Part shown: piece after piece, positions 7,073 to 56,070 of the stretch | Layout of the letters: each line of letters begins with the position of its first letter | Numbering within the stretch: the stretch's first letter is position 1 | Origin: Paraphaeosphaeria minitans | Lineage: Eukaryota; Ascomycota; Dothideomycetes; Pleosporales; Didymosphaeriaceae | Assembly (NCBI GenBank): GCA_015832175.1 | Contig: WJXW01000001.1 | Coordinates: 3,472,001-3,536,000, forward strand | Direction of reading: 5' to 3' | DNA: 64,000 nucleotides | Position numbers and translations under genes: made by a program | The notes under the pieces: generated by a model | Seen by the model: the letters and a program-made list of their open reading frames with translations, nothing else | Databases searched by the model: none | Told to the model about the DNA's origin: nothing

Positions 7073-7080
7073 TATATAAA
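7073..7080 (+). promoter_or_regulatory. TATA element upstream of tRNA-Pro
   Basis: TATATAAA lies 36 to 29 bp before the first base of the tRNA. Upstream TATA boxes at about this distance are used by Pol III at tRNA genes in some fungi (known for Schizosaccharomyces pombe). Its use here is inferred from spacing. Confidence 0.5.
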
Positions 7081-7127
7081 TGCAAAATTGCAACACCTAC
7101 TATCAAACGGCTTCATGGTCTAGTGGT

Positions 7128-7179
7128 GTAAGTTTACTCTATCCAATTCGTTGCGCTTCGTGTTCTAATAAATTTCCAG
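7128..7179 (+). other. Spliceosomal-type intron in the tRNA D-loop
   Basis: This segment fits the fungal spliceosomal intron of this genome in every feature visible here: 52 nt, GTAAGT donor, CTAAT branch-like core 14 nt from the end, and a pyrimidine-flanked CAG acceptor. The neighbouring protein genes have introns of 46-59 nt with the same signals. It is not at the tRNA endonuclease site. Removal by the spliceosome is inference. Confidence 0.65.
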
Positions 7180-7196
7180 ATGATTCCTGCTTTGGG

Positions 7197-7209
7197 TTAC
7201 TTCCTATGC
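7197..7209 (+). other. Canonical tRNA intron (anticodon loop)
   Basis: TTACTTCCTATGC interrupts the anticodon loop between positions 37 and 38, the usual eukaryotic site cleaved by tRNA splicing endonuclease. Its removal restores the 7-nt loop TTTGGGT. Confidence 0.8.
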
Positions 7210-7253
7210 TGCAGGAGGCCCCGCGTTCGAATCGCGGTGGAGCCCCTCTTCTA

Positions 7254-7260
7254 TTTTTTT
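7254..7260 (+). terminator. Pol III oligo-T terminator
   Basis: Seven consecutive T residues 9 bp after the discriminator base of the tRNA, the normal Pol III stop signal. Confidence 0.85.
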
Positions 7261-7713: not shown

Positions 7714-9987
7714 CTACAAATGCGGCACCTTCAAGCTAGCCAAACCCAAATTCACGATACTGAACAGTCCTTCGCCCAATATTAGACCGCTAGCAAGCAC
7801 AACAATCTGCGTCTCGCTTCGGCCCTTCCAACGCCTCCACCACAAGCTGATTAACCCACCAATGGTACGAGCAAGTGTGAAAGAGGGTGTGTTGTACATG
7901 CCTGCGCATCGTTAGTATCGAAAACCATAACTTGATCTGTCCAAATACGCACCAATAGCAAAGGCAATACCACCAGGCACGAAGTCCAGCCACTTTGCGC
8001 CCAGGCCTTGCCTCTTCCTGAATTGGCCGTAGACCCTCAACATCGTCCCCACAGCAAAGATGGCTCCAGCGCCCGCCGCCCATTCGCGAACCATGGGCGG
8101 CAGGCCTTGGCCGGTGACCAGTCTTGCAGTGAACACCCACACGTACGCTGTTGGAACTTCAAACAGGCCACCTGGGATCTGACCAGCGTACACATGCGTG
8201 TAGAGCTTGTATACCAATGCAGAGATCACTGCTCCGACGGCGCTGCCGATCATTTGGCCCCAGAACTGCGCGTTAGGGGCGGCCCCTAGCAGATGTCCGC
8301 ATTTGAGATCCTGCAGCAAGTCGCCTGCTTGGAGAGCCGCCGATTCGGAGACGGCACCGGCGAGCAAGTTGATGATGACGGAGTTCTTTGCGTTCGGTCC
8401 GGTGGTGGGCGTGATGAGCGCGAAGATGAGCTGTGTAAGCTTCGAGATGCCAGACACAGGGTTGAGGTCCGTCTCGCCTAACGCGCGAACGCCCATGATG
8501 GAGAGAAAGAGCGCTAAAACGAGTGCCAGTAACGTGAGACTGAGGGGAATGAGGTTGGGGAAGGATATGTGTACACCGGCTATGCATGCGGCGAGCGAGA
8601 GGATGAGCCCAATAATCGTTGTACGGTTCGAAATCTGGTGTTCGGGCGGTGCGTCCGGCTCGTTTTCTTCAGAAAGATGCTGCATGGCAGTAGTGATAGG
8701 ATTTGCGGAAGTACCGTTGCCGAGCTGAGTGTATGCAGCTTGACAAGTAATGTTGAGGGTGAGAAGCTGTTTCCAGGTGTGCGTATCGTAGATTTCTTTG
8801 ACGGCAGGATGGTACAACCGGCCGATGGCGAGCAAAGGTCGAACAGCGAGCCATCCGAGGTTGACCAAGGAATCTGCCAGCATGATTGCAAGTGAGATCC
8901 ATACGATCCATCCCTTCGACCCATCTGTCCAGTCTGAGACAGGTCCTGGTGCCCAGCCGCGATGTTTTGCCAGTGGCGACAGAATGCCCCAGCCCACTAT
9001 AGCACCCAGTAGCATATGAAGCGTTGTAGCGGGACCCATGATTATGCCCTGCCCTATGTAGGCTGGAGAAGGATTCAAAGTCCATAGCCATTTGCTTGCC
9101 AACGTAATCCCAAAGACGGGGACCTCGTGTAGCTGTGGAATGAAGTAGGTTATTATCGTGTAGAAAGCCGAGCCAGCAAAGGATATGAGCAGCAGACGGA
9201 TCCTGCCTCCCCAGTCACCGTCATCGTCAGGATCATATCCCTGTCCTTCAATCTGCTGCTCGTGGGATGGTCGAAGCGCGTATTCGCCTTCTGTCTCGGA
9301 AGACTGCAGGAGGCGCTGCTCTTCTCCCCTCTCTTCCTCCTCGCCCCTAGGGTTGGACATGGTGACTTTGGATTTCTCGTCGCCATGCAGGACTTGGATC
9401 ATCAGAGCTGTGGCAGTGCCACTCGGAAACTTCAGCTTCTCGCGAATAATCACCTCTTTGCGCAAAGGCACTGCAAACACCACACCGAAGAAACAAATTC
9501 CCAACGACCAGACAATCAGTCTCCAGAGACTGATGTCAAGAGGTCCATTTTCTTCTTTCGTCAACAAGAAGTTGAGAGCTGGGATAACGCCGACAAACCC
9601 GCATCCAAGCGGCATTGTCCCTACGGCGCCAGCAACAGACTGGACAAGTACATTCTCCACGGGTGTGAATGGGAACTTGAGCATATGGGACACCGTCTTG
9701 AAGTAGGCAAAACCGATCAGAGCTGAAGGCATGGCCATGCCCGTGACCCATCCTGTCTGTAGACCAAAATACATGTTGCTGAAGCATATGGCGACGCCGA
9801 TCGCCAAGCCACATAGGACGCCTCGGAGGGTGAAGTTGTGGGGTTGGTCGGCTCTCTCCGCAAGGAACCTGCGTTCTCTTGACTCTCGCGAACTGTGCCG
9901 AGACGGCGTCGCATCATTGGCATCATGCAGTTCATGATTTCGTTGGTTGTAGCCGATGTCCATGGAATCACCCCGGTCTGGAGCCAT
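7714..9987 (-). CDS. Oligopeptide transporter (OPT family)
   Basis: Proton-coupled membrane transporter of the OPT superfamily, expected at the plasma membrane or vacuole and moving small peptides or metal chelates. Exons are 9987-7953 and 7901-7714; the 51-nt intron (GTGCGT...GATACTAACGATGCGCAG) joins ...FAIG to MYNTPSF..., giving 740 residues from the ATG at 9987. A frame start 15 nt further upstream is TTG, so it was not used. The N-terminus is polar, the first membrane pair (LCGLAIGVAICFSNMYFGLQ) begins near residue 45, an acidic cytosolic loop (about 215-260) is rich in Glu, and about a dozen hydrophobic segments follow. NPVSGISKLTQ is a family-type signature. It is divergent from GPI8 with 290 bp between the start codons. 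Substrate is not predictable. Confidence 0.9.
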
Positions 9988-38027: not shown

Positions 38028-40599
38028 ATTGGGTATTTCGGAAAGTGCACTTATTGCATGCATGCGAGGCGAATCGGCGTTACCAGAGCAAACCCCTCCT
38101 CTCGTTGCGATTGTAGGCCCTCGATGTTCATAGCTATCGACGGGCTTTTCCTTTTCTTTGTAAGACTATAGGTATTGGTACAGCTAGCATGTGGCGAAGT
38201 GGAACACGCTCCCGACCCAGACCCAGCGATGGTATCGGAGCTACTACGTAAAGAAAATAAACAGTAAATTGCATGAAACCTGACCTTGCTGTTGATCCTA
38301 GAGTGTAATAGACGGCATGCGGCCATGCCAATGAGCGAAGATCTCTGCTTTGGGAAGCAGTGATGTGAGTCAGCGCGGTCGTATTTGCATATCAACAACT
38401 GGTTGTTTTGATGCTCCCTTCCCTCCACGAATAGATTCAACTTCCCCTAACTCGCAATCCTCGCGCTTGCGAACTTCTATTACGCTAGGACTGTAGACGC
38501 ACTGCTTGCGTGCATAATTATTATAAATGTAAAGCTTTTTAGGTCTTCTTTCCTAGCTAGGTCTAAAGAGCGTGTCGCGGAGGTTAGCTTGCTGGCGCGA
38601 AAACTGCTAGATGAGGCCGGTATATGCTATATACCTACCAATACAGGGTCCTTTATGTGGATCAATATGACGCCGTGGTTTAGGGAGGAAGATGGGGATG
38701 ATGGGATGGGCTAGGGGAATGAAGTTGGTGGAGAGACTGATTAGTTTTTATTGCAGGTGGGCAGATGAAGGATGTCGAAGAGCCGGAGTTGGTCTCGCTT
38801 GTGTTCACAAGAGAGCAACGATTGGTTACGGAGTGCGTGAGAAGGTGGAAGAAGGTCAGTGGGATCGTCTGACGACTCAAGAACGCGCATAAGTAGGTGG
38901 CAGTACCATTGGATCATGACTTGAGTTCAGTCTAGCTTTGTCGATGCGAAGTGCCATCTCCTCGAACGACCTTCTTTTCGTCTCGGGGTAGAGTTGAGAA
39001 AGGCGAAAATATGTCCGCCCAGCAGGATCGCGAAGGATATTTATGCAACCTTGCCTCCCATGTTTGTCTGATCGGGGCTGACCATGTACGGGAGCGAGAG
39101 CGACCAAAGCGCGTTCGATGCACCGTTGCCGATGGTAGCCATGGACTGTACCGCGGAACGAAGAATCCATAATATTGACAAAATCGAGGACTCTGAAGGA
39201 CAATCTGAGTCTCAGTCAAGTCCGCCAAAAGAAAAGCTGCTGGTACTTACGCTGCCAGCCATTCCATCGTGACTCCGCACAATACATGTGAAAAGCATGA
39301 AACAGCAGCAAGCGATAGACTTGGGAAGCCTCCTGACGCTTTCAAATGCAGACATTTTCTCGTCGACCTTCACATGTTGTCCCTTGGCGGCATCAGCCTC
39401 AACATCGTCCACATGAAGGACTCCATGCTTGATGTTGGTCTTTTCCTCGTCTATTGTGCTGTCGGCGTGGAGAGGTAGGAGTAAACAAAGAATGCAGACG
39501 CCACTAACCGTGCGGTAAGAGCTTGGTCGGGCTTCGCGTTCATGGGGGCTAGATGCACCAGACATGAACATACGTGGGGAGCCCACAATTTTACACTGGG
39601 GACCCATGGGGTTGTCTACCACCCTTACGGTACAGGACAGATTATGTACGGGGGGGAACATAGTTGATGGCGAATTGGCGGCTGGCCAGGATTTGCGTTC
39701 AGACGATGAATGCCGTGACGAACGTGCTTGATTGCTTGGATCAATACCTACCTAGTTGATCTGTGAATTCATGCTGCGAAGCCATGAACAGAGAACGGAG
39801 AAAGCCCATGATAGGCGCATGGACAGCACGCCAAAGTCTCAAAGTCCACTTTAGGGTGGAGTTCCAATGTTTAGCAACTACTTACCTAATCCCTAGGTAC
39901 CGTACAGGGCGGCGCGACCGAGGTAATACCTCGCTGTCAAGAATTTCCGAACCTGATGGGAATGAAGCGTCCGCTTAGAACGTAAGTCTAGCGCTTTTTC
40001 AAAAAAATAGTACGATGTGTTACCTACCCAGGAGGAACAACACAGTGCCCACCCTCATGATCTGGAGGGTCGCCGCATGCTTCGCCATACAACTCACTCG
40101 CAGTAGGATGGTTGACCTAAGTCAGGAATGCAAGAACAACGAGAGTTACTGACGCAGTATCGGTCCGATAAATGGATTCTGTCAACCCCAGATTCTGTGA
40201 TTTTGTTTGGCACGAGATGCGCTGATCAATCCACGTGCACGCAGATACGCCTAGGCGCCTGTGGGGCTCCAGTCGGAGGTTGTACAGATGCTCGTTGCGA
40301 GCACGAGCGACGACTTGCCGTAAAGCGCATTTTCCTCGCTTGGCAGAGAGGTAATCCGTATGTGAAGATGCGTACGGTGGGGCTATCGGGTGTGGTCGAC
40401 TCATCGAGACATCTCTAGGTACCTTAGGTACCTACCTAGATCATAACTGGTGTAGAAAAGAAATCTAAGACGAAAATACTCCGAAGATGAGCCACAAAGT
40501 GACAAAGTGGGCCTAGACGCCGTATTGAAACTCTCGCGATGTTTGCCATTCGACTCGATGCCGCTATTCGTGCCGTGGCAGTTGAGGAAATTGCCTTAG
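38028..40599. other. Gene-poor flank before the transposon block
   Basis: No supportable gene in 2.6 kb. The part near 38510-38580 is AT-rich. TACCTACC/GGTAGGTA motifs recur near 39748, 39879, 40018 and 40425. The last bases, CTTAG (40595-40599), are the left target-site duplication of the outermost retroelement. Confidence 0.5.
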
Positions 40600-40911
40600 T
40601 GTCCGTACAGTTTATCGTACAAATAGCACTGAGTGAAATAGGGGCCTGCCTACCTATAGGGACCCGCACAAGGACCCACTACTTAGGTCAGCGCTAAGAG
40701 GTAGAGACTTTATAAGGCCCTGCCTACCTATAAAGACCTGCATAAAGACCCCCTGCTTAGGTTAGCGCTAAGAGGCAGAGACTTTATAAGGTCCTTAGTG
40801 CCCCTTTGTATAATAGACAAGACGTAATTAATTAAACCTACTTTTTACCTTTTATATAATAGTATACTATTAACCTTTAAATGCTTAATTATAGATTAAG
40901 CTAAACCTATA
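40600..40911 (+). repeat. 5' LTR of X copy 1
   Basis: 312 bp, begins TGTCCGTACAG and ends CTATA (CTACA after RIP). It contains two tandem ~73-bp subrepeats (about 40645-40717 and 40718-40790), each with the palindrome TTAGCGCTAA (TCAGCGCTAA in the first) followed by GACTTTATAAGG. The outer edge is the least mutated of all six LTR starts. Confidence 0.95.
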
Positions 40912-41359
40912 CTAATTAGTGGTTAATTCTAATTAACTACAAACTAGTAAGGTCTAAAGACAGAGCGCCCTATAAGCTAAATACGTAGGCTCTATATTAT
41001 TACTTTTACTAGAGATTAAATTTTAGATTATATAATAAGCAGAAACAAAGCGCGTATATCTATAAAGAGTTACATAATCTAGTCTAAGCTATTCTATAGA
41101 AAAGAAAGGAGATAATACCTTTACTAGAGATTAAATTTTAGATTATATAATAAGTAGAAATAAAGCGTGTATATCTATAAAGAGTTATACAATCTAGTCT
41201 AAGCTATTCTATAGAAAAGAAAGGAGATAGTGAGTATATTTATAACCCTAAAAAACACATTATATAATTAAACTAGTAATAACTAAACGTAAACACGTTA
41301 TATAATTAAACTAGTAATAACTAAACGCAGACATGTTGTATAACTAAAAAAGATAATAA

Positions 41360-43040
41360 TAATATGGCCTTAAGACTAAGAGACTTCCTAGAGGAACTAC
41401 AACCTAAAGACGTTATATAATAATTAATACTGCCTTTTTAGTAAAAAGACAAAGCAATATAGCTTTAATAAGTAGAGGAAGTAATAAATATTAAGGCTAT
41501 TACCTTAAGAGGAGAGATTGCATAAAAGTACTAGATAGATAGAGTAGATCTACACAGCTACTTACCCCCTTCTCTAAAATAGCTAAACACTTATATAGTA
41601 TATATAATTATGCAATATCGCGCAAGTAGCCTTAAAGGTAAAGAGGTAATTTCTTTTTTTACTAAAGATTTTAATAACTAGAAAGAAAGAACTTTTAATA
41701 AGATTAGTTATATAGTAAGAAAAGAGCTTATTACTTTTTTTATAAAAGAAGGCTTTATTACTACTAATTCTATAATAAAGGACACTTATATAAAGGAACT
41801 CTTTAAACTATTATAGCTTAACTATAAGCTATAGACCTTTTATACAATAACGCTATAACTGTAACCTAAACTACTTTGTATAATTCTAATAATATAACCT
41901 ATACTATCTGTAGGTAATATATATACACATAGAGCACAGCTAGGGCCTATTCCTATACATGCGAGGATAGAGACACTATATATAAAGCTACACTAGTGGT
42001 AGTAGCCTAAAACCTAGACTGCTTTTGCCTAATAAACTATATTATATAAAGAGGCTAGACACTCTTAGTCTCCTTAAAAACTAAGAGATTATACTTATAT
42101 CTAGCTAGACAAGATTATTCTCTTTTAGAAGGCTTAGAGTAAAAAGAATAACTATACTAGTAGGCTATATAATATCCTAGTAAACAAAATAAAAGTCTTT
42201 AGAGAACTATGCTATAGGCTAGGTATACTATAGGACTAGTATATAAATATCTTTTTAAGAATCCTTTCTAATCGTGCGAGTACCTACTACCTACATAATA
42301 TTAGACTAGAACTTCTATAGGATAAATTATACAATAGACTAAATAGGCACTTTAACACTAGTATTAATTATAATTAGTACTAGATAGACTAGACTACTCT
42401 TACCTTTAAACACTATAAAAGGGATAATCTAGCTGCTATATCGCATAAGACTCTAGAAGTAATAATTAATAAGCTTACCTTAGCCTAAAGGGCTCTTAAA
42501 CAAGGCTTTAGTAGTAAACTATAACTACACACTACTATTATATAAGTATACTATAGCTATTTTAACCTTAAATAAGCTATATTTAACCCTAAAAATATAG
42601 TAAAAGGCTTACTTAGCGACCTTTATACGTTACTTTAAGTTACTAAAAATAGGAAGAAGTTACAGTTTCTCTAAGATAGTAAAGAGGTGTACTACACTAA
42701 TTAATAATATAATAATCCTAATTACATAAGAGGATCTAGCCCCTCTAGAGGCAGATTAACCTTTAGACTAAAAAGAAAGGGTAACTTTAGAAGTTTAAGC
42801 TCTTATATAAAGTAGAAATACTTTATATACTATAAAGAAAGATGCTAGTCTACTAACTATCTACTAAGGGATACTTAGCGAGCTAGAAGGTAATATATAT
42901 TATTATACGCTAACTTCTATAAACATAAACCCTTTGCTATAGATGTATAAATATATATCCTTAACTTTAAAGGAGAGCTAGAGGATAAAAACTATCGCAT
43001 AAAAGAGGAGGAAGATAAATAAAACTAATAAGGTAATAAA
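41360..43040 (+). pseudogene. Gag-like relic of element X copy 1
   Basis: Reading through the many TAG/TAA codons, one frame gives protein-like text, including SLKGKEVISFFTKDFNNWKE near 41640 and, near 42810-42880, a basic tract followed by a damaged Cys-rich block (YYKERC-stop-STNYLLRDT). The latter resembles the C-terminal zinc-knuckle region found in gag of several fungal LTR elements. The stops sit where Trp (TGG) or Gln (CAA/CAG) codons would be expected, consistent with RIP. No intact frame of even 60 codons survives over most of it. Confidence 0.5.
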
Positions 43041-43044
43041 GAAG

Positions 43045-43455
43045 TGTTAAGATCCGAAGGCTAGGCCTCCTAGGATCTTTATATGTATCTACATTCGTTA
43101 TTCGAGTGGCACAGCACAAAAGGTCACGTAACCTAATTAGTGTAATCAGAGCGCTAAGACAACTAATTAGACTAAGCACTTAATATACTAAGTAACTAAT
43201 TAGTGCTTAATTAGTTTAATTAGAGCGATTAGTCCACTAATCGCTTAAAGTATATAGGAACGCGAGAATAGGCTCTCTATACTTATGTTTAATCTGTTTA
43301 TTAATCTATTGTTTAGATTCTAGCAGACTAAATTGTTAACTTATTACACTTTGTAAAATACTATTATATTAATAAGACCTTCTACCTTCTATAAGTACTC
43401 TTGCCTAAGAACTAACCTTAATCCTTTAGGACTAGCTACCCTTTTAGATTTAACA
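43045..43455 (+). repeat. Left LTR of the chromovirus
   Basis: 411 bp, TGTTAAGATCC ... GATTTAACA. It includes the near-palindrome GCGATTAGTCCACTAATCGC. It is the same length as the right LTR (55660-56070), the differences seen being C/T and G/A. Confidence 0.93.
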
Positions 43456-45959
43456 TCTTAAACACCCTTAATATAAATACTTTATAAACTCCTACCTCTT
43501 CTATAGCTTTAGGTGCCACCAAGATTACTTTTATAAAGGATAGTAGTAAGGCGCACAAACTTAATTTCTACTTTAGTAAATAATCTTAAACTAACGTCTA
43601 GATTCTCTAGTTAGACCTCTACTTCTTTAACTTAGACAAACTACTTAAAGACAAAAAGAAGGTTATTTTTGCAGCAATATATATATAAAAAGATATAGGA
43701 TTATAGATCTATCCCTACCTTAAAAAGTACCTAGGAATAGACTACAATAACAATAACAACAATTACGTAAACAAGCACGCTAATACAGTTAATATTATTA
43801 AGAATTATAATAACTTTAAGAAATGCCTTAAACAACTCTTTAGGATCGCCAATAAGGACTCTATTATAAAGGTAAAGATTTAGACTATAATTTAGAAATA
43901 ATTAGTAGCTAAGTATATAGCTAAGTTTCGCAGATACGCTGTGCAACTTAACTAGGACAATAAATCTCTTTAGGATATATATAAATAAGGACTTAAATAG
44001 AAACTACGTAAGAAACTCTTACGTAGTAGTGTATAAATTGCTAACCTTAAAAAACTATATAAAGAAACTATTAGAATTAACAAAGAGTAGTTTTTACTGC
44101 AATAGAAGCTCTACTAAAACCCTAGGGCGATAAGCTTTAGACAACTAGTAAAAGTGGTTTATAAGAACCCTATTAGAATCGTCTAAAAGTAATAGCTAAA
44201 AAACTACTAAAGATATAAACTAATAGAAGATGTCTAGTTTAACTACATAGGTAAAAGAAAAAGAGGAAAAATAGGCCCTAAGCAGCCTAATAAACGCGTC
44301 TCTAATAGAAGTTAACAACTAATAACTAAGACCTATAAATACTTTATATATAGCAAACTAGACTATATAGCTAGGAACTATAGATTAAAGAACAAAGTCT
44401 ATTAAACTAAGTTAAATGTACTAACTATTAAGGACTAAGAACCTAATAAGGAATAAGAAGTTATTACAACGCTATTTAGTTACTAACACGTTACGCTAGA
44501 ACAAAGTAAGCAATTAGATTTACCTAACTCACAATTATACAAAGATCTAGAAGACGACTCTAACGTATACTACAACATAGAAAACATAGAAGAGATACTA
44601 AGATCTCCTACTCCTTACCTACAAAGTAGGCAGGAAAAAGACAACCCTATGTCACTTAAGTATAAACTAAATGTTTAGGACTATATAAAACCCTACTAGG
44701 CACTAAAAGGAATGCAACCCTATAAAAATAAGAAGTTAGACTATATACTAAAGTACTACCTAGACTACTAAAATCCTACACACTAATTCTGTATATGGAC
44801 GCATTATAAAGAACTAATATACACATAATATAAGGCAGAGAAAAAGGAGAATAAGAAACAACCTAGAAGGAAACTGCGCTATAAATAGATATAGATAGAC
44901 TACCCTATCGCAGCTTATAACAAACACCTCTAGAATAAACAATAAGTAAAATACTTTCCTTACCTTACACTAAAGGGTAATAAATACTATAATATACTTA
45001 TTAATAGAGACTGTATATAACTATACTAGTACACGTGTTTAAACTAAGACTATAAATACTACTATATAGCTAAATATTTAGATAGCTTTGTAAACTACCC
45101 TACGTAAGAAGTAATAATAGAGCTACTAATTTAACTAGTATACAGGAATAGTAAAGACTGCGGGAGGAACAATAAAAGAACATCTTTATAAGAAGAAAAA
45201 AAAGACAATTTACACAAGCTATATATTTAAGAATAATAATAGAAGTAGATGCTTAGAAACGCATACTAGGCACTAGAACTTAACTATAACCTACACAAAT
45301 AGATGTCTTTTTTAGGCTTAAACTTAGACAAGAAAACGCCTTTATTAAATTAAATACTATAGTAAGCACGGTATTAGTTAAGCTACTAGTACAGCTTAAA
45401 GGAATATAGGCTTAAGCTCTTATAGACTTAGAAGTAGAAAAGAACTTTATATCTTATTAGACAGCAAGATAAGCAGGATTTATAATATTAGAGAAAGAAG
45501 TACTTTATATTATCTATATTGTAAATAGATCCCTAATGCCTAAGACACTTTAAATATACTAGGAGGTCACTACCACAATAACAGTCTAAGGACATAGAGA
45601 GGAACTTACCTTAGATATCTTACTAGGATCTAAGTATAAGTTAGTCTTAGGATTACCTTAGTTAATAATACACAACCCGCAGATTAACTAGGGTACAAAG
45701 AAAATATTATTTAAACGCTATAATTATGTATTATAAGTAAAGCCTACGCATTAACTAAAAAAGATAGTAGATAAGGGAGTTATTAATAACATAATACTAC
45801 GATAGATAGTTAAAAAACAGAAGCACACCTTAGTAGACGCTAGTAGAAACTACTAGATTAAGAAGCGTAAGAAAGAGGACAATAGCACACCTCTTACCTT
45901 ACTAAGAGAGTACAGGAAATAGACATATATATTTATAGAAAAAGAAGGAAAAGCAAACC

Positions 45960-46632
45960 TACCTAAACATTAACCCTAGGATCTTATAATAGACCTAAAA
46001 GAAGGGAAGATGCCACCCTTTAGACTACTATACAGTAAGATAGGAGAAGAACTCCTTAAAGAACGTAATTTTATTAAAACAAACCTTAAAAAAGGATATA
46101 TATAACTATTAAAGTTACTAGCAGTAAGCCCTTTTATATTTATTAAGAAAAAGGATAGATTAAATAGACTATACGTTAACTACTAATAACTTAACAATAT
46201 AATAATAAAGAACTAATATCTACTACTAAATATTATAAAGTTACGAGATTAACTATCTTAAGCTAAGATATTCATAATAATAGATCTAAGAGACAGTTAC
46301 CACCTTATATAAATTAAAAAAAGTAAAGAATAGAAAACAGCGTTTTAATCACGCTACAGACTATTTAAGTACAAAGTTATACTATTTAGACTTACAAATG
46401 CACTAGCAGCTTTTATAGCACTTATTAATAATGTACTCTACGAACATCTAGACATATTTGTTATTACGTATATAGATAATATCCTTGTCTTTTCTAAAAA
46501 CAAATTAGACCACACTAAGCATGTATAGACAGTACTAGAAGCACTAGATAAAGTATACCTTTATATTAAACTTAAGAAATGTAAGTTTAACGTTAAACAA
46601 CTCGAATTCCTAGGATACATTATTACTATAGA
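45960..46632 (+). pseudogene. Chromovirus reverse transcriptase relic (5' part)
   Basis: With stops read through, the frame shows the order of motifs of Ty3/gypsy reverse transcriptase: DLKEGKMPPFRLLYS, SPFIFIKKKDRLNRLYVNY, FIIIDLRDSYH, FRLTNALAAFIALINNVL, then YIDNILVFSKN at about 46472-46504 in place of the catalytic YLDD, and KKCKFNVKQLEFLGYII just before the break. The second catalytic Asp is thus changed to Asn (GAC/GAT to AAT, a G-to-A change). It is interrupted at 46632/46633 by X copy 3 and resumes at 52953. Confidence 0.85.
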
Positions 46633-46944
46633 TGTTGGTTTGGCTTAATCTGTAATTAAGTATTTAAGGGTTAATAATATACTATTGTACAAAGAGTAAG
46701 AAGTAGGTTTAATTAATTACGTCTTATCTATTATATAAAGGGGCACTAAGGACCTTATAAAGTCTCTGCCTCTTAGCGCTAACCTAAGCAGGGGGTCCTT
46801 ATATAGGTCTTTATAGATAAGTAAGGCCTTATAAAGTCTCTGCCTCTTAGCGCTAACCTAAGTAGTGGGTCCTTATGTAGGTCCCTATAGGTAGGCAGGC
46901 CCCTATTTTACTTAGTGCTATTTATATAATAAACTATATAGATA
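46633..46944 (-). repeat. 3' LTR of X copy 3
   Basis: Reverse-oriented 312-bp LTR. Read on the minus strand it starts TATCTATATAG and ends AGCCAAACCAACA. Confidence 0.93.
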
Positions 46945-48801
46945 CTAGTAACTTTTCTTTTATATAATAGCTTATATCTATTATATACTTTCCTTTTCCT
47001 GTCTTTCTCTATCTATATAGTTAGCCTTCCCCCATTAGAATAGGTTATAAGGTAGGTGCAGTGTTACTGTGTAGTAAAGGTCCTATTTACACTTACTCTT
47101 ATATAAATAGGTAGTAATAGCTAACCTACTTAGTTCTTACTCTACCTCTTTATATAGTAGTAGAGTCGTATTGCGTAATAAAGCTCTTTCTAGACATATA
47201 TCCTATACGCAAACAGAAGGTAGGGTGTTAAGTAATATAATACTTAGCGCTAGGTCTTAGTAAGTAAATATAGAAGGATTACTCCTAGTTATATAATAAA
47301 GGTATATAGTAGAAGTAAAGTATAAAGTAGCCTTCTATACTTTTTCTTTATTACTCTATTAGTCTTATTTATCTTCCTCCTCTTTTATGCGATAGTCTTC
47401 TTCCTCTAGCTCTTCTTTAAAGTTAAAGATATATACTTATATATCTATAGTAGAGGGTTTATATTTATAGAAGTTAGTATATAATAACATATATTGCTTT
47501 CTAGCTCGCTAGGTATCCCTTAGTAGATAGTTAGTAGACTAGTATCTTTCTTTATAGTATATAAAGTATTTCTACTTTATATAAGAGCTTAAACTTCTAA
47601 AATTACTTCTTTTTTTTAGTCTAAAAGTTAATCTGCCTCTAAAGGGGCTAGATCCTTTTATATAATTAAGATTATTATATTATTAATTAGTATAATACAC
47701 TTCTTTACTATTTTAAAGAAACTATAACTTCTTTCTATTTTTAGTAACTTAGAGTAACGTATAAAAGTTACTAAGTAAGCTTTCTACTATGTTTTTAGAG
47801 TTAAATATAGCTTATTTAAGGTTAGGATAGCTACAGTATGCTTATATAATAGTAGTATATAGTTATAGTTTACTACTCAAGCCTTATCTAAAAGTCTTTT
47901 AGGCTAAGGTAAGCTTATTAATTATTACTTTTAGGGCTTTATATAATATAGCAGCTAGATTATCCCTTTTATAGCGTTTAAAGGTAAGAGTGGTCTAGTC
48001 TATCTAGTACTAATTATAATTAACACTAGTGTTAAAGTGCCTATTTAGTCTATTATATAATTTATCCTATAGAAGTTCTAGTCTAATGTTGTATAGGTAG
48101 TAGGTACTTACACAATTAGAAAGGATTCCTAGAAAGATGTTTATATACTAGTCCTATAGTATGCCTAGCCTATAGTATAGTTCTCTAAAGACTTTTACCT
48201 TATCTACTAGGATATTATATAGCCTACTAGTATAGTTATTCTCTTTACTCTAAGCCTTCTAAAAGAGAATAATTTTATTTAGCTAGATATAAGCATAATC
48301 TCCTAGTTGTTAAAGAGACTAGAAGTGTCTAGCCTCTTTATATAATATAGTTTGTTAGGCAAAAGTAGTCTAGGTTTTAGGCTGCTGCCACTAGTGTAGC
48401 TTTATATATAGTGTCTCTGTTCTCGTATGTATAGGGATAGGCCCTAGCTATGCTCTTTGTATATATATATTACCTACAGATAGTGTAGGTTATATTATTA
48501 GGATTATGCGAAGTAGTTTAGGTTACAGTTGTAGTATTATTATATAAAAGGTCTATAGCTTATAGTTAAACTATAATAGTTTAAAGAGTTTCTTTGCATA
48601 GGTGTCTTTTATTATAGAATTAGTAGTAACAAAGTCTTCTTTTATAAGAATAGTAATAAGCTCTTTTCTTACTATATAACTAATCTTATTAAAAGTTCTC
48701 TCTTTTTAGTCGTTAAAATCTTTAGTAAAAGAAAAGATTACCTCTTTACCTTTAAAGCTACTTACGCAATATTATATAATTATATACACTATATAAGTGT
48801 T

Positions 48802-49113
48802 TATGTCTGTACAGTTTATCGTACAAATAGCACTAAGTAAAATAGGGGCCTGCCTACCTATAGGGACCCGCACAAGGACCCACTACTTAGGTTAGCGCTA
48901 AGAGGCAGAGACTTTATAAGGCCTTGCCTACCTATAAGGACCTATATAAGGACCCCCTGCTTAGGTTAGCGCTAAGAGGCAGAGACTTTATAAAGCCCTT
49001 AGTGCCCCTTTATATAATAGATAAGACATAATTAATTAAACCTACTTCTTACCCTTTACATAATAGTATACTATTAACCCTTAAATACTTAATTATAGAT
49101 TAAGCTAAACCTA
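48802..49113 (+). repeat. 5' LTR of X copy 2
   Basis: 312 bp, TGTCTGTACAG ... ACCTATA, with the two internal ~73-bp subrepeats. Confidence 0.93.
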
Positions 49114-51646
49114 TACTAATTAGTAGTTAATTCTAATTAACTATAAACTAGTAAGGTCTAAAGACAGAGCGCTTTATAAGCTAGATACGTAGGCTCTGTA
49201 TTATTACCTTTACTAGAGATTAAATTTTAGATTATATAATAAGCAGAAATAAAGCGCGCACATCTATAAAGAGTTATATAATCTAGTCTAAGCTATTCTA
49301 TAGAAAAGAAAAGAAATAATACCTTTACTAGAGATTAAATTTTAGATTATATAATAAGTAGAAATAAAGCGTGTATATCTATAAAGAGTCGCATAATTTA
49401 GTCTAAGCTATTCTATAGAAAAGAAAGAAGATAGTAAGCATATTTATAACTCTAAAAAATACGTTATATAATTAAACTAGTAATAACTAAACGTAAACAC
49501 GTTGTATAATTAAACTAGTAATAACTAAACGTAGACACGCCGCATAACTAAGAAAGATAATAATAATATAGCCTTAAGACTAGGAGACTTTCTAGAAGAA
49601 CTATAACCTAAAGACGTTACGTAATAATTAATACTACCTCCTTAGTAAGAAGACAAAGCAACATAGCTTTAATAAGTAGAGGAAGTAATAAATATTAAGG
49701 CTATTACTTTAAGAGGAGAGATTACACAAAAGTACTAGGTGGATAGAGTAGATTTACACAGCTACCTACCCCCTTCTCTAAAATAGCTAAACACTTATAT
49801 AGTATACATAATTACGTAATATTACGTAAGTAGTCTTAAAGGTAAAGAGGTAATCTCTTCTTTTACTAAAGATTTTAATAACTAGAAGGAGAGAATCTTT
49901 AATAAGATTAGTTGTGTAGTAAGAAGAGAGCTTATTGCTTTTTTTATAAAAGAAGGCTTTATTACTACTAATTCTATAATAAAAGACACCTATGCAAAGA
50001 AACTCTTTAAACTGTTATAGTTTAACTATAAGCTATAGACCTTTTACATAATAACTCTATAACTATAACCTAAACTGCTTTACACAATCCTAATAATATA
50101 ACCTACACTATTTGTAGGTAATACATATATATATAGAGCACAGCTAGGGCCTATCCTTATATATGTGAGGACAGAGACACTATATATAAAGCTACACTAG
50201 TAGTAGTAGCCTAAAACCTAGACTACTTTTGCCTAATAAACTATATTATATAAAGAGGCTAGACACTCCTAGTCTCCTTAATAACTAGGGGATTATGCTT
50301 ATATCTAGCTAGACAAGATTATTCTCTTTTAGAAGGCTTAGAGTAAAGAGAATAACTACACTAGTAGGCTATATAATATCTTAGTAGATAAGATAAAAGT
50401 CTTTAGAGAACTATACTATAGGCTAGGCATACTATAGGACTAGTATATAAATATCTTCCTAGGAATCCTTTCTAATCGTACGAGTACCTACTACCTATAT
50501 AATATTAGACTAGGACTTCTATAGGATAAATTATATAATAGACTAAATAGGTACTTTAATACTAGTGTTAATTATAATTAGTACTAGATAGACTAGACCA
50601 CTCTTACCTTTAAACGCTATAAAAGGGATAATCTAGCTACTATATTGCATAAGGCCCTAAAAGTAATAATTAATAAGCTTACCTTAGCCTAAAGGGCTTT
50701 TAAATAAGGCTTTAGTAGTAAACTATAACTATATACTACTATTATACAAGTATACTGCAGCTATTTTAACCTTAAATAAGCTATATTTAGCCCTAAAAAT
50801 ATAGTAGAAGGCTTACTTAGTAATCTTTATACGTTACTCTAAGTTACTAAAGATAGGAAGAAGTTATAGTTTTTCTAAAATAGTAAAGAGGTGTACTACA
50901 CTAATTAATAATATAACAATCCTAATTATATAAGAGAATCTAGCCCCTCTAGAGGCAGATTAACCTTTAGACTAAAAAAAAGGGGTAACTTTAGAAGTTT
51001 AAGCTCTTATATAAAGTAGAAATACTTTATATACTATAAAGAAGGATACTAGTCTACTAACTATCTACTAAGGAATACCTAGTAAGCTAGAAGGTAATAT
51101 ATATTATTATATACTAACTTCTATAAATATAAACCTTTTACTATAGATATATAAGTATATATTCTTAACTTTAAAGAAGAGCTAGAGGAAGAAAACTATT
51201 GTATAAAAGAGGAGGAAGATAAATAAGACTAATAGAGTAATAAAGAAGAAGTACAGAAGGCTACTTTATACCTTACTTCTACTATATACCTTTATTATAT
51301 AACTAGGAGTAATCCTTCTATATCTACTTACTAAGACCTAGTACTAAGTATTATATTACTTAACACCTTACCTTCTATTTACGCACAGGACATATGCCTA
51401 GAAAGAGCCTTATTATATAATATAACTCTACTACTGTGCAAAAGGGTAAAGTAAGAACTAAGTAGGTTAGCTATTACTACCTATTTATATAAGAGTAGGT
51501 GTAAATAAGACCTCTACTATATAGTAATACTACACCTACCTTATAACCTGTTCTAATAGGGGAAGGCTAACTGTATAGATAAAGAAGGATAGGAAAGGGA
51601 AAGTGTATAATAGATATAAGCTATTATATAAAAGAAAAGTTACTAG

Positions 51647-51958
51647 TGTCTATATAGTTTATTATATAAATAGCACTAAGTAAAATAGGGGCCTACCTAC
51701 CTATAGAGACCTATATAAGGACCCACTACTTAGGTTAGCGCTAAGAGGCAGAGACTTTATAAAGCCTTACCTACCTATAAGGACCTACACAAGGACCCCC
51801 TGCTTAAGTTAGCGCTAAGAGGCAGAGACTTTATAAAGCCCTTAGTGCCCCTTTGTACAATAGACAAGACGTAATTAATTAAACCTACTTTTTACTTTTT
51901 ACACAATAGTATACTATTAACCCTTAAATGCTTAATTACAGATTGAGCCAAACCTATA
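51647..51958 (+). repeat. 3' LTR of X copy 2
   Basis: 312 bp, TGTCTATATAG ... GAGCCAAACCTATA. It differs from the paired 5' LTR by transitions only at the ends compared. Confidence 0.93.
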
Positions 51959-52635
51959 GTTTAGCTGTTTTAGAGAAGGGGATAGGTGGCTGTATAAATC
52001 TACTCTATCTACCTAGTACTTTTGTGTGATCTCTCCTCTTAAGGTAATAGCCTTAATATTTATTACTTTCTCTACTTATTAAAGCTATATTACTTTGTTT
52101 TCTTACTAAGGAGGTAGTATTAATTATTGTGTAACGTCCTTAGGTTATAGTTCCTCTAGGAAGTCTCCTAGTCTTAAGGCCATATTATTATTATCTTTTT
52201 TAGTTATGTAACGTGTTTATGTTTAGTTATTACTAGTTTAATTATACAACATATTTGCGTTTAGTTATTGCTAGTTTAATTGTGTAATATATTTTTTAGG
52301 GTTATAAATGTGCTTACTATCTCCTTTCTTTTCTATAGAATAGCTTAGACTAGATTATGTAACTCTTTATAAATATGCACACTTTATTTCTGCTTATTAT
52401 ATAATCTAAAATTTAATTTCTAGTAAAGGTATTATCTCCTTTCTTTTCTATAGAATAGCTTAGACTAGATTATATAACTCTTTATAAATGTGCGCGCTTT
52501 ATTTCTACTTATTATATAATCTAAAATTTAATCTCTAGTAAAAGTAATAATATAGAGCCTACGTATCTAGCTTATAAGGCGCTCTGTCTTTAGACCTTAC
52601 TAGTTTATAGTTAATTAGAATTAACTACTAATTAG

Positions 52636-52947
52636 TGTTAGTTTAGCTTAATTTGTAATTAAGTATTTAAGGGTTAATAGTATACTATTATATAAAAAGT
52701 AAAAAGTAGGTTTAATTAATTACATTTTATCTATTATACAAAGGGGCACTAAGGACCTTATAAAGTCTCTGCCTCTTAGCGCTGACTTAAGCAGGGGGTC
52801 CTTATGTAGGTCCTTATAGGTAGGTAGGGCCTTATGAAGTCTCTGCCTCTTAGCGCTAACCTAAGTAGTGGGTCCTTGTGCGGGTCCCTATAGGTAGGCA
52901 GGCCCCTATTTCACTTAGTGCTATTTGTACAATAAACTGTACAGACA
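52636..52947 (-). repeat. 5' LTR of X copy 3
   Basis: Reverse-oriented 312-bp LTR. Read on the minus strand it starts TGTCTGTACAG and ends GCTAAACTAACA. Confidence 0.93.
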
Positions 52948-52952
52948 ATAGA

Positions 52953-54945
52953 AGGAATTAAGATAGCACTAAGTAAAGTTAAATGCATTAAGAACTAGCT
53001 AATACTAAAGATAGCTAAGAATATCTAAGAATTCTTAGGATTCTATAGATTTAATTAACAATTTATCTAAAATTATATAAAGGTTACAATACCCTTAACA
53101 AATTTTATAAAGAAGGATGTACCCTTTAAATAGACAGATAAGTGTGGAATATTATTCTAACTCCTTAAGATAGTATGTATTATAGAACCTATCCTTATTT
53201 ATTTTAGAAGTAATAAACTACTACGCTTTAAAATAGACGCTAGCGATCTTACGCTAGGCGCCTACACTAAATAAGAACATAATAGTAAATAGCACCTAAT
53301 TGCCTATTACTTATATAAATTTAATAACGCTAAAACACAATATAATATACATAATAAAGAACTCTACGCTATTATTAAAGCCTTAAAGCACTAGAGAATT
53401 TACGCGCTTAGTTACTTAACGCTAGAAATTTACACAAATTACAAAAACTTTCTAAGGTTCACGACAATAAAAGAACTTACGCTATAATAACAAAAATAGT
53501 TATAAACTATAGGGCAGTACAAGTTTAAAATCATCTATGTAGCTAGGAAAGAAAATAGCAGAGTAGACGCTCTTAGCTAATAAAGTAATCTAGTAGGAGA
53601 AAAGGCAAAAACCTTCTCTACAATCCTTCGCAAAGCCAAAAATAGATCTCTAGAACTAATAGCAGAACTAAATTAACTTTTAGTAATTAACTAAGAAGTT
53701 CTAGAACATCTACAGACTAAGATTATCTAATAATACCACAATAACCCTATATACAGACACCTAAGTATCACAAAAACAATAGAACTTATCTAAAGGAATT
53801 ACACCTTTAAAAGAATTAAGGAAGCTATAATAACTTATATCCGCAAATGTGCAGAATACTAGAGAAACAAATATAGTACACATCTTAAATATAGAGAGAT
53901 ATAAGCAATTAGAATACTAATAGCACTATAGAAAGACATTATTATAGATTTTATTATAGGAATTCTAAACTCTAAGAATTTAACAACAGGAATTAAATAC
54001 AACAGCATACTAGTAATAGTCTACTAACTAACTAAGTATATTAAGCTCATTCTATGCCTTAAAAGAATAATAGTAAAGGAACTCGCTTTTCTTATCTTAG
54101 ACTAACTAATTAGACACTATAGAATTCTAAAAATAATTATTAGCAATAGAGACAAGCTCTTTATATTAAATTATTAGATAACACTTATAGCACTACTTAG
54201 AACGAAACAAAAACTATTAATAGCTTACTATTTATAAACTAACAGACAAATAGAACGTATAAACTAAACTATAGAAACGTACCTACGCATCTACTGCAAC
54301 AGTTAGAAGAATAACTAGGTTTTATTACTACTTATAGCACAGTTAGCCTATAATAATAAAGTATTAGCAGCATTAGGACATACACTATTCTATATAAACT
54401 ATAGAAAACACCTACATCTCTTTAACTAACAATTTTCTACGACAATTAAAGCAAAAGAAGCTATAAATATAGTAGAAAATATAAAGAAAATACACTAATA
54501 ACTCTAAGAAAATCTCAAGAAAGCTTAGCAGCAATTAATTTTATACTAAAATTAAAAACAAAAAATAGCACCTTAGCTAAAAAAGGGGGATAAAGCATAT
54601 CTACTTACAAAAAACCTTTAAACTTAGAAGAAAAAACACAAGAAACTAGATTATATTAAAGTTAGACTATTTTACATTTCTAAGTAAATATCACTAGTAA
54701 ACTATAAGTTAGAACTACTACTAGATGCAAAGATACATCTAGTATTCTACGTATTACTACTAGAACTAGCAGACCCTAATACACTAGTTAGAACTGCCTT
54801 CTACCACAGAACTAAAGAAGAAAATAAATTTAAGGTTAAAAGAATTTTAGAATATAATTAGTATAGCAACGCGTACCTTATTAAGTAGAAAGGTTACTTA
54901 TATAGCGAAAACACTTAGGAACTAGAGAACTACCTAGGAAACTGT
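52953..54945 (+). pseudogene. Chromovirus RNase H, integrase and chromodomain relic
   Basis: Continuation of the pol frame after X copy 3. Read through stops it shows: the RT thumb (IEGIKIALSKVKCIKN), RNase H (LRFKIDASDLTLGAYT near 53230, ARKENSRVDALS near 53560), the zinc-binding and catalytic integrase parts (IIIDFIIGILNS near 53940, ISNRDKLFI near 54150, AYNNKVLAALGHTLF near 54350), and a C-terminal chromodomain (ILEYN-YSNAYLIK-KGYLYSEN, about 54840-54920). Aromatic Trp positions of the chromodomain are now TAG. The chromodomain places the element among chromoviruses, which in other fungi target heterochromatin. Confidence 0.85.
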
Positions 54946-55645
54946 TAATAAAAGATTAAAAAATTCTACTAATAACTTACACAGTATAATAATATTTATA
55001 CCTAAAATAGTAAAGGCACCAAATTATCCTAGAATTCTAATAAGAAATCTTTAAAAGCGCTCTATATCGTAAGGGATAAGAAGGGACCTAAAGGAGTCTT
55101 ATTAACTACTAGATTAATAGCTTTATAAGATTTAGCCTCTTTAATACTTTTCTCTTTAACTACTATTATATCCTTAGTACGCTTATCTAGTAAGTCTATT
55201 TACTAATATAACTAATCTTTATATGTGCGTGTAACCTATAACTTCTCTAACGCCTCCTTATAGGCTTTAAACATAGCCTCCTACGTTTCTTTTAACTCTT
55301 TTATTTATATACGCAATTTCTCTTTCTCCGCTAATAAACGCTTAAACTTAGACTCTAAAACGCGTATATTGTAATGTTAACTTTAATAAACACATTCCCT
55401 ATATCTTTTAGACTAAACGTGAACTTTGTAAATATAGTTATGTTTTATATATATTAAGCATTTCTTAACTATAACTTCGTTAAAGGAGTTAATAAAATTA
55501 GTTAGGTAATAGTAATAGGTAGTGCTAGACTTAGAAGGTTATTAGGGCATAATATAAGTAAGCTAATACTACTTATAACGCGGGGCGAGCTCTAGTTATA
55601 ACTAGGCATAAGACATAGTTATATAATTTAAGGACAAATCCTAGT

Positions 55646-55656
55646 AAGGAGGGAGA
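55646..55656 (+). other. Polypurine tract of the chromovirus
   Basis: AAGGAGGGAGA immediately upstream of the right LTR, the expected primer site for plus-strand DNA synthesis. Confidence 0.7.
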
Positions 55657-55659
55657 TAA

Positions 55660-56070
55660 TGTTAAGATCTAAAGGCTAGGCCTTTTAGAATTTTTATATG
55701 TATCTATATTCGTTATTTAAGTGGCACAGCACAAAAGGTTACGTAACCTAATTAGTGTAATTAGAGCGCTAAGATAACTAATTAGACTAAGCACTTAATA
55801 TACTAAGTAACTAATTAGTACTTAATTAGTTTAATTAGAGCGATTAGTCCACTAATTGCTTAAAGTATATAGAAACGCAAGGATAGGCTCTTTATACTTA
55901 TATTTAATCTATTTATTAATCTATTGTTTAGATTCTAGCAGACTAAATTATTAACTTATTACACTTTGCAAGATACTATTATATTAATAAGACCTTTTAC
56001 CTTCTGTAAGTACTCCTACCTGAGAACCAACCTTAACCCTTTAGGACTAGCTACCCTCTTGGATTTAACA
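55660..56070 (+). repeat. Right LTR of the chromovirus
   Basis: 411 bp, TGTTAAGATCT ... GATTTAACA, followed by the duplication AGAAG. Confidence 0.93.

Follow-up and report, generated by a model that had tools for sequence, protein, structure and literature searches.

Can a working nuclear tRNA gene carry an intron of the kind that interrupts messenger RNA genes, and would the spliceosome then have to take part in tRNA maturation? The question is raised by a tRNA-Pro gene of the ascomycete Paraphaeosphaeria minitans, which lies in the stretch of 64,000 nucleotides analyzed here (the window) and which a first-pass annotation had read as interrupted in its D-loop by a spliceosomal-type intron. 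In the textbook account, nuclear tRNA introns are excised by the tRNA endonuclease and by nothing else, and to our knowledge no earlier spliceosomal intron has been described in a tRNA gene. Spliceosomal splicing is normally coupled to RNA polymerase (Pol) II, and mRNA-type introns are found also in the U6 snRNA genes of basidiomycete yeasts.

The U6 RNA of Schizosaccharomyces pombe is a spliced Pol III transcript, according to the available part of one report (PMC8917221). Most eukaryotic tRNA introns are canonical in position and non-canonical ones are supposedly rare, the eukaryotic cases named in the accessible sections of a review being those of nucleomorphs and Cyanidioschyzon (PMC4090602); the string "spliceosom" is absent from the main text of this review. 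In red algae, permuted and interrupted tRNA genes are tied to bulge-helix-bulge (BHB) motifs, as far as the excerpt of a second source goes (PMC3978253). Among the matches listed from the open-access literature, outside which most subscription journals lie, no paper mentions a tRNA gene with a spliceosomal intron in its title or in the opening of its abstract, and novelty is not proven. The portions available of PMC12730881, PMC11782384, PMC13149111, and PMC13130702 describe none either.

The tRNA-Pro Gene and Its Two Introns

The window gene consists of three exons of 19, 17, and 36 nt, which together form a tRNA-Pro(UGG) of 72 nt. Its parts and flanking signals, all on the plus strand, are as follows.

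7073..7079, plus: TATA-like box TATATAA, starting 36 nt upstream of the tRNA 5' end (sequence)
7109..7245, plus: tRNA-Pro(UGG) gene with two introns (sequence, ARAGORN)
7109..7127, plus: exon 1, 19 nt, tRNA nt 1-20, the same as in the intron-less paralog (paralog comparison)
7116..7126, plus: A box, TGGTCTAGTGG, intact (sequence, A-box consensus)
7128..7179, plus: 52-nt spliceosomal-type intron at tRNA positions 20/21 (sequence, paralog, border tests)
7128..7133, plus: 5' splice site GTAAGT (sequence)
7165..7169, plus: branch-point-like CTAAT, with its A at 7168, 11 nt before the intron end (position computed)
7177..7179, plus: 3' splice site CAG (sequence)
7180..7196, plus: exon 2, tRNA nt 21-37 (paralog, ARAGORN)
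7197..7209, plus: ordinary 13-nt anticodon-loop intron at 37/38 (ARAGORN)
7210..7245, plus: exon 3, tRNA nt 38-73 (paralog, ARAGORN)
7225..7233, plus: B box, GTTCGAATC (sequence, B-box consensus)
7254..7260, plus: T7 run resembling a Pol III terminator, beginning 9 nt downstream of the tRNA gene (sequence)

The exons, both inserts, and the GTAAGT, CTAAT, and CAG motifs thus lie where the first-pass annotation had placed them, and the upstream TATA box, A box, B box, and T7 run that it had reported are present. Only one spacing had to be corrected: after CTAAT the insert runs on for 10 nt and not 14. The claim that a tRNA-Pro(UGG) is obtained only after removal of the segments is borne out by ARAGORN with introns allowed, which calls tRNA-Pro(tgg) with the 13-nt intron once the 52 nt are taken out and gives a false tRNA-Ser for the unspliced gene. 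At the tool's settings ARAGORN reports no tRNA in the whole window, and the Rfam gathering search of the whole window gives no match. The folding z-score of the unspliced transcript (-1.14) is uninformative. The 13-nt anticodon-loop intron is expected to be a substrate of the tRNA endonuclease.

The tRNA-Pro gene adjoins an oligopeptide transporter gene (7717-9987, minus strand), whose product is listed as 100% identical to a P. minitans protein over 95% of the query; in a tblastn alignment with the P. minitans protein one of 740 residues differs (V43A). Another window gene finds its best match in Paraphaeosphaeria sporulosa (96%, with 74% of the query covered). Both matches point to a pleosporalean ascomycete of this genus, probably P. 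minitans. Further along the window, at 40001-56000, an AT-rich block with a GC content of 28-36% lies between gene regions of about 50% GC, and is presumably comparable to the RIP-affected repeat islands of Pleosporales.

The borders of the 52-nt insert are fixed by a second tRNA-Pro(UGG) gene in the genome assembly (G000, contig C3, 3288366-3288459), because this paralog has the same exons (72/72 bases identical) without the insert. It carries an anticodon intron of its own. A genome search with the insert-less Pro D-arm pattern gave four matches, which are this paralog, two Pro(CGG) genes, and a single Pro(AGG) gene, with anticodons read by eye and AGG also called by ARAGORN.

Interrupted tRNA Genes in the Genome

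The genome searched comprises 47,450,912 bases (47.45 Mb) in 30 contigs. GT-AG inserts of 49-56 nt were found in 12 tRNA genes, the window Pro gene and 11 more, at ten positions from 3/4 to 46/47 (numbers assigned by hand). Twelve is a lower bound since the tRNA inventory is partial. The 11 further genes are listed with the search that found them.

C4:4038604: tRNA-Val(CAC), 55-nt GTAAGT..CTAAT..CAG insert at 20/21 (D-loop plus GT pattern)
C1:568627: initiator tRNA-Met copy 1, 53 nt at 38/39 (Rfam family search)
C9:583301: initiator tRNA-Met, 52 nt in the variable loop at 46/47 (initiator D-arm pattern)
C17:1062599: initiator tRNA-Met, 52 nt in the variable loop at 46/47 (initiator D-arm pattern)
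C4:3088709: tRNA-Ser(CGA), 49 nt in the acceptor stem at 3/4 (Rfam family search)
C10:238894: tRNA-Leu(CAG), 50 nt at 10/11 (Rfam family search)
tRNA-Leu(AAG), GT-AG insert at 23/24 (B-box screen)
tRNA-Leu(CAG), second gene, GT-AG insert at 24/25 (B-box screen)
tRNA-Arg(UCU), GT-AG insert at 19/20 (B-box screen)
tRNA-Arg(UCG), GT-AG insert at 18/19 (B-box screen)
tRNA-Ala(CGC), GT-AG insert at 25/26 (B-box screen)

The Rfam family search, in which 62 of 1307 candidates were scored, gave 52 tRNA matches, and the three interrupted genes among them (initiator copy 1, Ser(CGA), and Leu(CAG) at 10/11) stand near the low end. The B-box pattern screen, which does not presuppose GT-AG, produced 81 rows for 78 distinct sites; 24 were already Rfam matches, and 46 of the other 54 were read. 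These 46 include 23 clear tRNA genes and three with unclear long anticodon inserts (L152, L160, L172), which were left out of the 12. In five of the 23 clear genes an insert lies elsewhere than in the anticodon loop, and each of these inserts is GT-AG.

After in-silico splicing, each of the 12 genes is recognized as a tRNA by ARAGORN. The expected anticodon is given for 11 of them, and an ambiguous "(cg)" for Ser(CGA). Without splicing, half of them (6/12) receive no call, and the amino acid is correct only for initiator copies 1 and 3. An anticodon intron is also present in 7/12 genes. Six of these introns are given by ARAGORN, and that of Ser(CGA) was recognized by eye and shows as an insert in its cmscan alignment.

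The insert borders of Pro, Val, and initiator copy 1 are unique, without sliding; those of the nine remaining genes slide over 2-5 frames, of which exactly one per gene gives GT..AG. Insert-less paralogs are known for Pro(UGG), Ser(CGA), Ala(CGC), Arg(UCG), and Leu(AAG), and the interrupted copies of these tRNAs could therefore be dispensable. With the anticodon intron counted, identity to the paralog is 84/87 for Ala, 95/98 for Leu(AAG), and 80/85 for Arg(UCG). Compared by eye with its paralog L121, Ser(CGA) shows two compensated stem-pair changes, A10-U25 for G10-C25 and C5-G68 for U5-A68. A second Val(CAC) gene was found neither by DNA search nor with an anticodon-arm pattern, both of which a differing copy could escape.

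Several candidates were rejected. The remaining five of the six matches to the Val(CAC) anticodon-arm pattern are not tRNAs by eye. For the other matches to the D-loop plus GT patterns (8/10, 18/20), 230 nt of sequence contain no T-loop motif, and ARAGORN makes no call. When two bases of the D-loop pattern were left free, 67 of 70 matches were one repeated sequence, and one of the other three was read and is no tRNA. The tRNA-like loci L160 (C5:1251256) and L172 (C14:416459) have anticodon-region inserts of 93 and 100 nt according to ARAGORN; within the 93-nt insert of L160 there is CTACTAAC..CTAG but no GT start, and L160 was not accepted as a GT-AG case.

Other loci were met in the same searches. 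L171 (C12:1506702) is probably a pseudogene; it has the 3' part of a tRNA-Asn, with 5 nt inserted close to the acceptor end, and a 5' half is not recognizable in the stretch read. L155 (C4:1989659) has a B box, an upstream TATA-like box, complementary ends, and a T-run after them with no tRNA call, and is perhaps another Pol III transcript. On the 4.3-Mb contig C3, tRNAs for Ile (GAT), Arg (ACG), and Met and one with a TCA anticodon lie within about 13 kb (2840217-2853194; L084, L087, L088); by our own reading this cluster is of mitochondrial type, either a nuclear mitochondrial insert or a mis-assembly. The exact 20-mer TAGTATAATAGGATGTAAGT has 67 copies on many contigs (e.g., C1:1550 and C2:4810943), often about 1.5 kb from the contig end. 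It is probably a subtelomeric repeat family, with many contigs reaching near the telomeres.

Initiator tRNA-Met Genes

All three initiator tRNA-Met genes found are interrupted, at 38/39 or 46/47, and after splicing they are identical to each other. The initiator D-arm pattern gave 18 matches, 14 of them with one mismatch; the four exact ones were read, of which three are the genes and the fourth is not a tRNA. The initiator T-arm pattern has three exact matches, which are the same three genes. It has no match with one or two mismatches and 15 with three, compared with 35 matches at up to three mismatches for the reversed control. An initiator gene with a T-arm intron or a more diverged T arm, or one outside the assembly, would be missed by the T-arm pattern. 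No intron-less initiator tRNA-Met gene is present among the D-arm and T-arm pattern matches, and because the genes found include no intron-less source, the initiator introns would have to be removed. This suggests, at the level of the genes, that the mRNA splicing machine must process tRNAs before protein synthesis can take place. For relatives, a scan of viral contigs with the initiator 5' part gave 0 matches.

Splice Signals of the Inserts

All 12 inserts start with GT[AG]NG, seven of them with GTAAGT, and all end in AG, which is YAG in 11 and AAG in one. CTNAY occurs within the last 20 nt of every insert, as CTAAY in nine, and its A lies 9-13 nt before the end. Among 400,000 random window segments of the same lengths, 1541 were GT..AG and 25 of these also had GT[AG]NG and CTNAY, compared with 12/12 tRNA inserts; the combined rule (CTNAY in the last 20 nt) was written after the sequences had been seen.

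Two mRNA introns of the window, set by protein alignment, are 51 and 49 nt long, start with GTGCGT and GTAAGG, have CTAAC and CTTAT near their ends, and terminate in CAG and TAG. The likeness to introns of nearby genes that the first-pass annotation had drawn is upheld by these two. Shared sequence among the inserts, as would be seen for introner-like elements, was also looked for: the best pair (the third initiator and Ala) scores 14, a value reached by 5/200 shuffles and a weak sign of a common origin.

Transcription Signals

A run of at least four T lies within 45 nt downstream of 10/12 genes, the other two having been read for 27-28 nt. A TATA-like box starts 27-54 nt upstream of 9/12 genes (46-70 nt read), and none is seen for Val in 70 nt or for initiator copies 2 and 3 in 47-49 nt. 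TTTT is absent from the 622 nt of the 12 tRNA introns, where shuffles contain 3.5 on average and reach zero in 5.4% of cases, and is present in both window mRNA introns. Since TTTT is a Pol III stop, its absence is suggestive but is not proof. The Ser(CGA) intron puts 49 extra bases before the A box, and the A box of one Leu(CAG) gene is split by its intron; either change could weaken Pol III transcription. The U6 gene of this genome has no intron, which means that such introns are not general for Pol III genes here.

Weighing the Explanations

The best explanation of the 52-nt insert is a true spliceosomal intron of the U2 type that sits in a functional nuclear tRNA gene. At least 12 genes of the genome would be of this kind, their Pol III transcripts being spliced by the spliceosome. 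A probability of about 0.87 is given to this reading from the gene sequences, and the proposal of a spliceosomal-type intron made in the first-pass annotation is supported to that extent. A rival reading is that the inserts are non-canonical tRNA introns cut by the tRNA endonuclease at BHB motifs, as in archaea, Cyanidioschyzon, and nucleomorphs, and several of their positions (3/4, 20/21, 25/26) do overlap archaeal ones given in the accessible part of a review (PMC4090602). Four genes also reach three of four pairs in a test of the BHB central helix, in which intron nt 2-5 pair with exon nt 2-5. However, in the strict form of this test all four pairs form in 0/12 genes; on average 1.9 of the 4 pairs form, where random letters would give 1.5. 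Moreover, the endonuclease needs neither GTRNG nor CTNAY nor AG, yet all are present 12/12, and cleavage of the inserts by this enzyme is considered very unlikely.

The interrupted copies could also be silent or dying genes that acquired inserts while other copies do the work, and the intron-less paralogs of Pro(UGG), Ser(CGA), Ala(CGC), Arg(UCG), and Leu(AAG) fit this idea. The first-pass annotation had held that several normal Pro(UGG) copies, together with no reads spanning the 7127/7180 junction, would refute its own reading. One intron-less paralog does exist, so that the cell may do without the window gene by itself. However, the three initiator genes found are interrupted without exception, which argues that the introns are removed. 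The exons are intact, being identical between copies in Pro and the initiators, and the two stem-pair changes that separate Ser(CGA) from its paralog are compensated, by eye. Complete splice signals in 12/12 would not be expected in dead genes, and decay of these loci is given slightly less credit even than endonuclease cleavage. No better placed is the idea that the spliceosome does remove the introns but that Pol II makes the transcript, the tRNA being released from a longer RNA. It agrees with the usual coupling of spliceosomal splicing to Pol II and with the TATA-like box not being seen in 3/12 genes, but T-runs follow 10/12 genes and TATA-like boxes stand 27-54 nt upstream of 9/12. The A and B boxes are also kept in the window gene; in one Leu(CAG) gene the A box is split. 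In addition, S. pombe U6 is a Pol III transcript that can be spliced, according to the part of the report available (PMC8917221).

Proposed Maturation Pathway and Implications

For the preferred reading, a spliceosomal intron in a Pol III transcript, the analysis shows the gene anatomy, insert borders, splice signals, in-silico spliced folds, the recurrence in 12 genes, and an intron in each of the three initiators found; Pol III transcription, spliceosomal removal, and the order of steps are proposed. Pol III would transcribe the window gene, using its TATA-like box, A and B boxes, and T-run. The spliceosome would then recognize GTRNG, CTNAY, and AG in the pre-tRNA and take the intron out as a lariat. 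Folding of the tRNA and trimming of its ends would follow only after this removal, since each intron interrupts an element of the tRNA structure, be it the acceptor stem, the D arm or its junction, the anticodon stem-loop, or the variable loop. In the 7/12 genes with an anticodon intron, this second intron would be lost afterwards to the tRNA endonuclease.

It is rather likely, judging from the genes, that tRNA maturation cannot do without the spliceosome in this fungus and perhaps in related ones, that translation initiation depends on the splicing of every initiator tRNA, that two-intron pre-tRNAs pass two unrelated splicing systems in sequence, and that tRNA genes have repeatedly been targeted by spliceosomal intron gain at many positions. 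If true, Pol III transcripts other than U6 would be spliceosome substrates, and the initiation of protein synthesis would be tied to the spliceosome. The genes would also offer a natural system for intron gain in RNAs under strict structural constraint, and would show how tRNA finders miss genes, as ARAGORN and the Rfam gathering search did in the whole window.

Comparison with Known Systems

Canonical nuclear tRNA introns, which lie at 37/38 and are handled by endonuclease and ligase, share the tRNA hosts with the inserts, and 7/12 genes carry one too. In contrast, none of the 12 GT-AG inserts is at 37/38, the nearest being that of initiator copy 1 at 38/39 (numbered by hand), and the inserts have splice signals and no strict BHB.

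BHB introns of archaea, Cyanidioschyzon merolae, and nucleomorphs likewise fall within the D arm, acceptor stem, or variable loop, and more than one may occur per gene, according to the accessible sections of two sources (PMC4090602, PMC3978253). Unlike them, the inserts have GT-AG termini and a branch-point motif, and lack the strict BHB helix.

The mRNA introns of this fungus, of which two were checked (49 and 51 nt), resemble the inserts in size and have the same motifs. They differ in their host, which is not a tRNA, and in TTTT, which is present in both mRNA examples and in none of the 12. Compared with the mRNA-type introns of U6, those described here reside in at least 12 tRNA genes at ten positions, whereas the U6 gene of the same genome is intron-less.
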